Assembly (NCBI GenBank): GCA_022843175.1
Contig: JALHOE010000083.1
Location: 1-34,721, forward strand
Direction of reading: 5' to 3'
From: Deltaproteobacteria bacterium
Lineage (GTDB): Bacteria > Myxococcota_A > Polyangia > Polyangiales > JADJMO01
DNA: 34,721 nucleotides
Shown here: piece by piece, positions 31,484-34,612 of the stretch
How the letters are laid out: each line of letters begins with the position of its first letter
How positions within the stretch are numbered: the stretch's first letter is position 1
Made by a program: the position numbers and the translations under genes
The notes under the pieces: generated by a model
The model's database searches: none
What the model was told of the DNA's origin: nothing
Seen by the model: the letters and a program-made list of their open reading frames with translations, nothing else

Positions 31484-31804
31484 ATGGCGTCGCCGGTCTT
31501 CGCCGAGGTGTGGAAGCTCGTGCGGACGATCCCGCGCGGCAGGGTCGCGACCTACGGTCAGCTGTCGCAGATGATCGGCCGACGTCTGACGCCGGTCGGG
31601 ATCGGCTGGGCGATCCGAGCCTCCGAGGGGCTGCCCTGGCACCGGGTGATCAACGCGCGCGGGGGCATCTCGACCGACAACGACCATCCGGGGCTGCAGC
31701 GCGCGCTCCTCGAGGCCGAGGGCGTCCGCTTCGACCGCGACGGGCTCGTCGATCTCGAGACGTATCGGTGGAAGGGACCTCGCGGAGCGACGCGAGGCGC
31801 GTGA
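31484..31804 (+). CDS. alkyltransferase-like (ATL) DNA-lesion-binding protein
   Basis: This 106-residue protein has the fold of the C-terminal domain of O6-alkylguanine-DNA alkyltransferase: FAEVWKLVRTIPRGRVATYGQLSQMIG, with the Arg and Tyr used to flip the base. The active site that is PCHR in true transferases reads LPWHRVINARG here, with Trp replacing the acceptor Cys. That is the defining change of ATL proteins (E. coli YbaZ, yeast Atl1), which bind O6-alkylguanine and hand it to nucleotide-excision repair without removing the alkyl group. The ATG at 31484 is the start, with a weak ribosome site. It stands 47 bp before the next unit and may or may not be cotranscribed. Confidence 0.93.
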   Translation: MASPVFAEVWKLVRTIPRGRVATYGQLSQMIGRRLTPVGIGWAIRASEGLPWHRVINARGGISTDNDHPGLQRALLEAEGVRFDRDGLVDLETYRWKGPRGATRGA

Positions 31805-31851: not shown

Positions 31852-32307
31852 ATGGCCCAACCCCAGCTCGCGAGCTTCAAGTACAGCCACGACGACGAAG
31901 TGCCGCTCGAACCCGGTCGCCGCAACGCGTTTATCGTCACGCTCGCGATCGCGCTCGTCGTCGCGGTGCTCGGCTTCCCGGTGGGCCTCCTCGCGCTGAT
32001 CGTCCCGCTGATCGTCTACCTCTCCCGGCCGAAGAAGCTCTACGTCGGGCCGCGCTACCTGATCTGCGGCCGGCAGATTGTCTACTACGCGAACGTGGTG
32101 AGCCTCACGCTCGAGGGCAACGAGCTGCGCGTCCAGTTCCCCGGGGGCGCGTTCGTGCTCGAGCGCGAACGGTTCCCGACCAACGCGCGCAAGCCCGAGA
32201 AGATCGCCTTCAACAAGGACCAGAAGTTCTCGAAGGTGGCGAAGAAGATCATCAGCAAGGTGCAGGCCGCGGCGCCCGACGCCGAGCTGATCGGCATCGC
32301 GCCATGA
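31852..32307 (+). CDS. small membrane protein with PH-like domain
   Basis: This encodes 151 residues. A hydrophilic lead of about 25 residues is followed by a helical hairpin of two membrane segments (about 26-60). A cytoplasmic domain of about 90 residues then has strands typical of bacterial PH-like domains (KKLYVGPRYLICGRQIVYYANVVSLTLEGNELRVQFPGGAFVLERERF). AGGGA lies six bases before the ATG at 31852, a good ribosome site, so this is probably the first gene of its operon. The stop overlaps the radical SAM start by ATGA. It may tether or recruit the enzyme at the membrane; the role is not known. Confidence 0.8.
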   Translation: MAQPQLASFKYSHDDEVPLEPGRRNAFIVTLAIALVVAVLGFPVGLLALIVPLIVYLSRPKKLYVGPRYLICGRQIVYYANVVSLTLEGNELRVQFPGGAFVLERERFPTNARKPEKIAFNKDQKFSKVAKKIISKVQAAAPDAELIGIAP

Positions 32308-34157
32308 GCGCGCTCGTCACGCTGTCGAAGAAGCCGGCCGCGGCGCCCGCGCTCGCGCGCAACATTCACCTCCTCTACGTGCCGACGCTCGCCTGCAACC
32401 TGAGCTGTACGTACTGCTACCTCGGCGTGCAGACCACCACGGCCGCGATCAAGCGGGACGCCGCGCGCGCCGTCGACACCCTTCGCTTCGCGCTCGACGC
32501 GCTCCGCTCGGCGGGCGTGCTCGCCTTCAACGTCTCGCTCCACGGCGGAGAGGTCACCACGCTGCCGCCACCGGTGCTCGACGGCCTCTTCACCCTCATC
32601 CGGCAGCACTACCTCACCCATTTCGACGACATCACCGCGCTCGGTCACCGCAAGTCGTCGCCGCACATCAAGACGAACCTCTTTGCGTTCGCGCCGCTCT
32701 ACGAGCTGTTCGATCGCCACAAGGTGTCGATCAGCGCGAGCATCGACCTACCGCTCCGCCTCCACGCGCTCCACCGGCGCACGCGCGGCGGCAAGGACTG
32801 GCTCGAGCGCACCCACGACAACCTCCGGCTCCTCAGCCGCTACCCCCACGCCCGCAAGATCTCCGCGACGCTCTCGAGCGAGCACCTCGCGGACATCCCC
32901 GCGATCATCGAGGACATCTGGTTCATCCACCGCGAGCTCGGCTTCGACATGAACCAGCTCAACTTCATGTTCGCCTTCGCCTCCGAGCTCAACCGGGCGA
33001 ACAAGGGCGAGGCCGTGCTCACGCCGGCCACGCCGGAGCAGCAGCTCGCGTTCTACCGCGCAGTCACCGCCGCCTTCACCGGCACCGAGCTCGAAGAGGG
33101 TCTGCGTCGAAACTGGTTCGACGAGTTCAAGCCGAGCTACTGCACCAACGCCCAGAACTGCGGCGAGCGCTTCTACCTGCTCCAGAGCGACGGCTCGGTC
33201 TACTCCTGCGTGCGCGGTCAGGGCATCGCAGAGTTCCGCTACGGCAACGTGTTCGAGGATCGGGTGGACGACATCCTCGCGGCCGGCGCCCGCAAGATCA
33301 GCGCGATCCACCAATCGCACGGCTTCGACGAGGGCTGCCAGAGCTGCAACCACCTGTCGCGCTGCCACACCGGGTGCGCGGTCGTGAAGCACCAGAGCGC
33401 CCGGGCGAGCTCCTACACGTGCGCGCTGCAGAAGACGATCTACGCAGACAACCCGCGCACCTATCCGGCGGCGAGCCCCGAGCAGCAGCGCGAGGACGCG
33501 GCGCAATACGCGCGAGACGTGCACCCCGACCTCGCCTTCGCGCAGCCCACGCCGCGCCGCGCGGAGACCGTCGTGCTGCCGGAGGAGGTCTACGAGAAGA
33601 AGAACGCGCTCCAGCCGCTCATCGACGAGGACCCGCTGCTCCGAGCGCTCTACAGCGACGACGCCTTCCTGCTCGAGCTCGGCGACGAGCTCGTGCCGCT
33701 CACCTCGCAAATCCTCAAGACGCGCTCCAACTGGTACGTGCTCGCGCCAGGGGATCGCGCGCGCCTGCACGTGCGCAGGAGCCTCTTCGAGGCGAACTGC
33801 AGCGAGCCCATCCGCAACACGCTCTACCTCCAGATGCTGCGCGACACGCCCGTGGTCTACGGCGACGAGCGGCGCACCAAGCAGGAGCACCTCTTCACCT
33901 ACCAGCTGCACACGCACTGCCTCGAGGAGAGCGCTCGCCTCGGCGCGGACTTCGTGTCGGCGGACCTGACCGGCATCGTCGATCTGCACGCCCGTCTCTA
34001 CCGCGAGGGGGTGCGCAACAACCTGCTCGTCACCACGCTCTTCCTGCGCGAGTACCACTACCAAAAGCAGCGAAACAATGCCTTCTATCACCTGCAGGCG
34101 ATGAACCTCCCGTTCCAGAACTTCGAGTTCTTCTACCTGCCGAAGGGCCGCGCGTGA
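32304..34157 (+). CDS. radical SAM/SPASM-like maturase with extra C-terminal domain
   Basis: A 617-residue enzyme. CNLSCTYC (Cys31, Cys35, Cys38) binds the SAM-cleaving 4Fe-4S cluster, and HGGE (80-83) is the SAM-contact motif. Further cysteines at 280, 286, 302, 345, 348, 354, 358 and 373 (SYCTNAQNCG, SVYSCVRG, CQSCNHLSRCHTGC, YTC) form a SPASM-like auxiliary cluster region, as in peptide-modifying radical SAM enzymes. Residues from about 400 to 617 form a further domain that I do not recognise. Start and stop are both shared with neighbours by 4-base overlaps, so it is translated with the PH-like protein and with the poly-Asn protein, the latter being a plausible substrate or partner. A sulfatase-type maturase is an alternative, but no sulfatase is nearby. 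Confidence 0.9.
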   Translation: MSALVTLSKKPAAAPALARNIHLLYVPTLACNLSCTYCYLGVQTTTAAIKRDAARAVDTLRFALDALRSAGVLAFNVSLHGGEVTTLPPPVLDGLFTLIRQHYLTHFDDITALGHRKSSPHIKTNLFAFAPLYELFDRHKVSISASIDLPLRLHALHRRTRGGKDWLERTHDNLRLLSRYPHARKISATLSSEHLADIPAIIEDIWFIHRELGFDMNQLNFMFAFASELNRANKGEAVLTPATPEQQLAFYRAVTAAFTGTELEEGLRRNWFDEFKPSYCTNAQNCGERFYLLQSDGSVYSCVRGQGIAEFRYGNVFEDRVDDILAAGARKISAIHQSHGFDEGCQSCNHLSRCHTGCAVVKHQSARASSYTCALQKTIYADNPRTYPAASPEQQREDAAQYARDVHPDLAFAQPTPRRAETVVLPEEVYEKKNALQPLIDEDPLLRALYSDDAFLLELGDELVPLTSQILKTRSNWYVLAPGDRARLHVRRSLFEANCSEPIRNTLYLQMLRDTPVVYGDERRTKQEHLFTYQLHTHCLEESARLGADFVSADLTGIVDLHARLYREGVRNNLLVTTLFLREYHYQKQRNNAFYHLQAMNLPFQNFEFFYLPKGRA

Positions 34158-34612
34158 GCGCCCCGGATCTGGCGCGCACCGCTTACACGGTGCAGTGCTT
34201 CCTCAACGCGCTGAGACTCCCCGACGGCCGCGCCCGCACCGAGCTCGAGGAGCGCCTCGTGTCGTGGCTGGGCGAGCCGGGTGGCGGCGACCGACGCGCC
34301 ATCTTCAGGGACGCAACGCTCTTCTGCTACGAGCAGCGCGCGGTGGCGTTCAGCGTATCGCTGCCCCTCGCCCGGCAAACGCGCGCCGTCTTCTGCGACG
34401 GCCGGAAGATCTCGATGATCGACGAGCGGGCGTTCCTCGACGGCGGCAAGCTCGTCATGCTGGGGACCGCGGGACTGATTCTCACGCTGCCCGGGCCCTC
34501 GGCCGGTCGACGCCCGCCGAGCCCCGACGGCACCACGAGCAGCAACAACAATAACAACAACAATAACAACAACAATAACAACAATAACAACAACAATAAC
34601 AACAACGGGTAG
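34154..34612 (+). CDS. poly-asparagine-tailed protein next to radical SAM enzyme
   Basis: This encodes 152 residues. The first 112 look like a small folded domain (TVQCFLNALRLPDGRARTELEERLVSWLG, AIFRDATLFCYEQRAVAFSVSLP, FCDGRKISMIDERAFLDGGKLVMLGTAGLILTLPG) with Cys15, Cys58 and Cys81. A Pro/Arg/Gly linker (113-128, PSAGRRPPSPDGTT) leads to two Ser, 21 consecutive Asn (131-151) and a final Gly. No family is recognised. The start is GTG at 34154 in a GTGA overlap with the radical SAM stop. The domain-linker-repeat layout resembles a leader and core, so a modified peptide is possible. A plain low-complexity tail is the cautious alternative. Confidence 0.78.
   Translation: MSAPDLARTAYTVQCFLNALRLPDGRARTELEERLVSWLGEPGGGDRRAIFRDATLFCYEQRAVAFSVSLPLARQTRAVFCDGRKISMIDERAFLDGGKLVMLGTAGLILTLPGPSAGRRPPSPDGTTSSNNNNNNNNNNNNNNNNNNNNNG
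34544..34606 (+). repeat. AAC/AAT trinucleotide tract encoding 21 Asn
   Basis: This is 63 bp built from AAC and AAT codons only, in a 12-base unit AACAACAACAAT with two shorter (9-base) units, so 16 AAC and 5 AAT. It is extremely AT-rich against a background near 70 percent GC, where AAC is otherwise favoured over AAT. Any gain or loss of units keeps the frame, so length should vary without inactivating the gene. Confidence 0.95.

Follow-up and report, generated by a model that had tools for sequence, protein, structure and literature searches.

Positions 31852-34612 of contig JALHOE010000083.1 (34,721 nucleotides from a Deltaproteobacteria bacterium of the Polyangiales, assembly GCA_022843175.1; the whole stretch is called the window here) hold a three-gene cassette encoding a membrane protein (gene A), a radical S-adenosylmethionine (SAM)/SPASM enzyme (gene B) and a small protein with a C-terminal asparagine tail (gene C). 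A preliminary description of the window had seen the three genes overlapping start to stop, and they do so in an ATGA at 32304 (A/B) and a GTGA at 34154 (B/C). The contig ends 109 bases past C, and the window shows no downstream genes. The cassette comprises:

31852..32307, + strand: gene A, 151 aa
32304..34157, + strand: gene B, 617 aa
34154..34612, + strand: gene C, 152 aa, candidate substrate
34544..34609, + strand: codons of the Asn21-Gly tail, a mixture of AAC and AAT and then GGG, proposed target of B

The product of gene C is composed of a folded core (residues ~1-100), a disordered linker and a C-terminus that ends exactly as had been described, in 21 Asn and a Gly before TAG. In the predicted model, the predicted local distance difference test score (pLDDT) is ~80-94 in the core and 35-55 in the tail. 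The tail is written in 16 AAC and 5 AAT codons, its DNA forms a 21-bp tandem repeat, and a scan of the whole 9.75-Mb genome found it to be the sole run of at least seven AAY codons. The fold of C has no known match, with a best E of 1.3 in Foldseek and of 0.17 with a PDB sequence profile; a Pfam match to an EED insertion was rejected as an artefact of the Asn run.

Gene B had been read as a radical SAM enzyme with SPASM-like cysteines and an unrecognised C-terminal domain, and both parts of that reading stand. Its 11 invariant cysteines comprise C31, C35 and C38 of the radical SAM motif (CxxxCxxC) and C280, C286, C302, C345, C348, C354, C358 and C373 of the SPASM part; these eight all align with those of 4k36, an anaerobic sulfatase maturase (AnSME), and no invariant Cys lies beyond the 11 cluster ligands. 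A score of 39.7 bits against TIGR04085 (SPASM; cut-off 27) places B among the radical SAM/SPASM proteins, with Pfam scores slightly under gathering (22.8/29.5 and 20.2/21.5). In the predicted model (mean pLDDT 75.8), residues ~19-389 adopt the AnSME fold (best match 4k39, Z 26.5, 333 residues aligned, root-mean-square deviation 3.6), and residues ~425-617 form a family-specific domain, whose motif YHYxKxxNAFYHxQxxNxPF is kept from phage to bacterium. The last ~190 residues match no Pfam family or PDB sequence. The likeness to AnSME (TIGR03942; PDB 4k36-4k39) thus extends to the fold, the CxxxCxxC motif and the complete set of eight SPASM cysteines. On the other hand, B reaches 66.4 bits against TIGR03942, far under the cut-off of 349.45, carries the extra C-terminal domain, has no sulfatase in its cassette and shows V, P or H in all seven rows of the alignment to 4k36 at the residue that follows the third SPASM cysteine, where AnSME has its catalytic Asp, the base of its reaction. 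The score and this position disfavour B as a member of the sulfatase maturase family. Among the matches listed for named NCBIfam radical SAM peptide maturases (25 families), no equivalog came near its cut-off, the best reaching 66 of 349 bits.

Among 84,980 species genomes, a protein search for B identified four close relatives that match over the full length and are 63-72% identical, from Burkholderiales, Rhodoferax, Fluviicoccus and Rhodocyclaceae. The next matches (L007-L082) are 23-32% identical in the SAM/SPASM part only, and were not counted as family; they are probably other SPASM enzymes, and comparable plasmid genes are annotated peaB, for amine dehydrogenase maturation. Genome searches added L002 (from the window's order, 45% identical), L105 and L106 (from the order of L003), and L153 and L154 (from the class of L005). 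Together with the window, the nine further bacterial cassettes give ten in which a C protein with an Asn-run C-terminus is encoded in the same cassette as B (10/10), so that the adjacent precursor with a modifiable core expected of ribosomally synthesized and post-translationally modified peptides (RiPPs) is found in each. An enzyme family consistently beside another clear substrate would have spoken against the preliminary description; bacterial B always lies beside the poly-Asn protein. The Asn counts are 21 (window), 7+4 (L002), 6 (L003), 13 (L004), 14 (L005), 12 (L006), 14 (L105), 9 (L106), 16 (L153) and 15+2+2 (L154), all ten tails close in Asn-Gly, and they are composed of Asn and Gly alone. 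It had been suggested that the tail be examined for variation in length and residue: its length does vary, from 6 to 21, whereas residue identity is constant. AAC and AAT are mixed in the tail codons of every locus, which fits selection on the protein sequence rather than one recent trinucleotide expansion.

Eight loci have the order A-B-C. The other two, C-A'-B in L002 and B-C-A' in L154 (whose contig starts within B), form a separate branch of the tree (support 93/91) and are called type II; a different membrane protein, A', replaces A in them (L002:708-1427; L154:2232-3038), and their C cores are missed by the type I profile. In type I C proteins C58 is conserved and is usually joined by another Cys, both lying in the folded core and none in the tail; type II C proteins are without Cys and keep the Asn tail. 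The cassette is rarely seen. Since the B of the window nests within the Pseudomonadota cassette branch and B is present in only 2/145 genomes of the window's own order, the phylogeny suggests that the cassette has probably spread by horizontal transfer.

To examine the pairing of B with the tail, we searched 349 genomes from the order to which L003 belongs. Three of them have B (3/349), and the DNA pattern Asn6-Gly-stop was confined to these three, a reversed-pattern control giving 0; the chance of an identical selection of three genomes is 1/C(349,3), about 1.4e-7. Homologues of C occurring mostly without the enzyme would have spoken against the preliminary description, and the C core, searched without its tail, was recovered in these same three genomes, always beside B. 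A fourth, weak C-core match (E 0.006) holds four stop codons. When viral contigs were scanned for Asn6-Gly-stop, chance or low-complexity matches alone were returned, without B; the pattern is specific in the tested bacterial genomes and unspecific in AT-rich viral DNA. Nine viral contigs (L158, L159, L160, L163-L167 and L169) have in common a short reading-frame fragment, KNNNNNNG-stop, which is probably one common sequence of related phages.

A second line of evidence comes from phages. PHROG 1802 matches B over residues 26-609 (E 3e-45), C-terminal domain included. In Campylobacter phage CAM-P21, as in a plasmid prophage of C. coli, a B homologue 33% identical lies two genes after a tail fibre that ends in ...SGSTNNNNY. 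A profile search of viral contigs yielded 13 more B loci (L088-L100). Fourteen Mu-like loci are of the Campylobacter type (L086-L098 and L100), a host of that genus being recorded for L086 and L087 only and the others assigned by similarity, and all have the gene order fibre, ~211-aa protein, B. Their fibres end in an Asn run in 14/14 cases: NNNNY in nine, NNNNN in L095, GNNF in L096, L098 and L100, and GNNS in L097. The ~211-aa protein is found only in loci with B and would be a fibre chaperone, given its position and the need of the CJIE1-like fibre for a neighbouring gene (PMC7882524). The CJIE1-like H-fibre and chaperone of Campylobacter prophages share the anchor family and position with the fibres described here and likewise represent a receptor-binding fibre dependent on the gene next door; no radical SAM gene is reported there, whereas the present type adds B and the Asn-run end (PMC7882524).

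Mu-like prophages of this type swap the C-terminal region of the fibre on one conserved anchor, which provides a natural comparison. Across 28 viral loci with a common fibre anchor (L112-L139; 87-100% identical), complete fibres end in an Asn run in 7/7 cases with B downstream vs 0/19 without it; Fisher's exact probability is 1/C(26,7), about 1.5e-6, for related strains that are not independent. Counted as distinct fibre ends, about eight occur with B, all of them Asn, vs seven without B, none of them Asn, and wherever the Asn-run fibre type occurs, the ~211-aa gene and B occur too. L087/L088 and L093/L094 have the NNNNY end in common, although identity in the receptor region just preceding it is only 25-29%. 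These control counts, and the retention of NNNNY despite a diverged receptor region, indicate that the Asn end follows the enzyme and not the fibre.

Sequence comparison firmly establishes that the B family is paired with C-terminal Asn runs. Because the two unrelated carriers, C and the phage fibre, have only the C-terminal Asn run beside B in common, we consider it probable that the run of the neighbouring partner protein is the target of B, an unnamed radical SAM/SPASM maturase family. The preliminary description had proposed the Asn tail as substrate of the adjacent enzyme: the pairing is supported by 10/10 cassettes and an independent phage line, and the modification itself we infer. With somewhat less assurance, we also favour the wider proposal that the family is specific for C-terminal Asn runs on a bacterial cassette protein and on receptor-binding fibres of temperate phages, and that it introduces new Asn-derived chemistry at the host-binding tip of the virion.

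In the mechanism that we envisage, the barrel of B would receive the disordered Asn tail from the partner's folded portion, which is the C core in bacteria and the fibre in phages; the C-terminal domain found in this family only would hold the carrier or the tail, and the 5'-deoxyadenosyl radical would remove a hydrogen (from C-beta or C-alpha) of successive Asn. The two SPASM clusters would take up the remaining electron, giving a net oxidation per modified Asn; the product could be a desaturated residue, one bonded to an amide nearby, or something similar. The eight conserved, fully ligated SPASM cysteines suggest such a net oxidative change by analogy, fully ligated SPASM clusters having been proposed as electron sinks (PMC8326336). 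In bacteria, gene A may serve to bring either C or the enzyme to the membrane. The Asn side-chain carbon can be a site of SPASM attack, as in the Cys-Asn bridge of the ranthipeptide NxxcA (PMC8326336) and in WxN-type cyclophanes. Those products need a Cys or aromatic partner, whereas the bacterial tails here consist of Asn and Gly. Cys thioether chemistry is unlikely, since type II C proteins are without Cys; the substrate Cys that act as thioether donors in sactipeptides and ranthipeptides are absent from type II and confined to the core in type I. Aromatic cyclophanes are similarly unlikely in the bacterial branch, as the tail holds only Asn and Gly; the aromatic core residue that three-residue cyclophane-forming enzymes (3-CyFE) use is missing, and phage tails end in Tyr or Phe but also in Ser or Asn. 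What remains is an oxidative change, within single Asn residues or linking two of them, or some other reaction not yet described.

Several other explanations have to be weighed. If C were the precursor of a classical RiPP, its folded part would serve as a long leader, and B would modify the Asn core before a protease from an unlinked gene cut it off as a small molecule. A small protein with a disordered C-terminal repeat does adjoin a radical SAM/SPASM enzyme, and there is precedent for a SPASM-type enzyme that acts repeatedly on a single residue type: TvgB of the poly-cyclopropylglycine system takes many turns on an adjacent peptide (PMC9062424). There the target is Val in the TVGG repeats of a small peptide, and the paper's text names neither an Asn-run system nor phage. 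Release is nevertheless unlikely, and the modified tail would most likely stay on its protein, because no peptidase or exporter gene is conserved with the 10 cassettes (unlinked genes may supply these functions) and the phage carrier is the receptor-binding fibre itself, a structural protein that must stay whole. It is also conceivable that the Asn run is only a docking handle and that the residue changed by B lies elsewhere in C or the fibre; a Cys, the target in sulfatase maturation, would be one example. B is nearest to the AnSMEs in both fold and sequence, and C58 is common to type I C proteins; we regard the idea as improbable all the same, in view of the Cys-free type II proteins, the lack of any other motif seen in common between C cores and fibres, and the replacement of the catalytic Asp of AnSME.

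The preliminary description had suggested epimerisation as an Asn chemistry, and B might convert alternate Asn to D-Asn to give a beta-helical tail, as in polytheonamide-type proteusins. Long Asn-only runs would suit a repeated intra-residue reaction, and proteusin epimerases such as PoyD do work on successive positions of long cores (PMC8326336); these systems also resemble the cassette in their long leader, Asn-containing repetitive core and radical SAM maturation. However, they have another leader and multi-enzyme clusters, their epimerases have the radical SAM cluster only, without SPASM, and peptide epimerases need a critical, dedicated Cys (PMC8326336). B has a full SPASM cysteine set and no spare conserved Cys, and the 2-5 Asn of the phage tails would not suffice to form a pore, so epimerisation is disfavoured and has little probability in our estimation. 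A neutral microsatellite or linker, paired with B through operon inheritance while B acts on an unrelated target, is the least credible of these explanations. The tandem repeat in the window and lengths that vary as by slippage would agree with it, and it is countered by the mixed codons at every locus, by the persistence of the run in two unrelated carriers and by its absence from fibres without B.

Other observations weigh against the Asn run as target. Fibre end and enzyme could move together as a single module even if B acts on something other than the run. Some phage fibres have two Asn only (GNNF/GNNS), which would be minimal targets, and B is interrupted in two of the four two-Asn loci (L097:7968-9757 and L098:7953-9742). 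The prophage loci are partly near-identical, and the counts overstate their independence. Asn6-Gly-stop alone also ends two further viral proteins whose surroundings, as far as they were read, encode no such enzyme, and L099, a metagenomic phage contig of 96.8 kb, encodes an enzyme that has 38% identity with its prophage counterpart and sits on a long tree branch, and whose neighbours have no Asn run.

Within L099 (6743-7261 and 7971-9800), this distant B homologue lies near a short tail-like protein, which has repeated KKVYRxIAxxWT and a Cys-rich C-terminus (CALCASCSGCPC) and is perhaps a different substrate of the enzyme family.

The preliminary description knew of no system of this composition, and in the open-licence literature none was found for poly-asparagine with a radical SAM enzyme, nor any description of radical SAM modification of tail fibres. 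If the target proposal is true, poly-Asn would be an added target, and probably a new reaction, for radical SAM chemistry, radical SAM enzymes would finish structural proteins as well as small peptides, and the tips of phage tail fibres would bear a modification that recombinantly expressed fibres would lack. The cassette offers a ready two-protein test system, and the phages supply a natural control in fibres that share an anchor but differ in whether the enzyme accompanies them.

Gene A has a hydrophobic N-terminal part followed by a conserved part with the consensus GPRYLICG...YYANV...FPTxARKxxKI. Homologues 39-45% identical lie directly upstream of B in L003, L004, L005, L006 and L106, and similar genes occur in L105 and L153; by this sequence conservation, A is a member of the type I cassette, and it may anchor or partner C. 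The label "PH-like" given to it earlier finds no support, and a PH domain was rejected: the protein has no match in Pfam, NCBIfam or PADLOC. The A' protein of L002 has a marginal GIDE-like match (E 0.064).

The flanking genes differ at every related cassette and are ordinary and not conserved, which ruled out a mobile-element or prophage setting for the bacterial cassettes. A defence-system reading was likewise set aside, with no PADLOC match save a marginal viperin match of B. Upstream of the cassette, a gene absent from the other cassettes (31484-31804, +) encodes a protein of 106 aa that belongs to the O6-methylguanine methyltransferase DNA-binding family; PWHRV stands where PCHRV is usual, so that by its sequence the product is an alkyltransferase-like protein.
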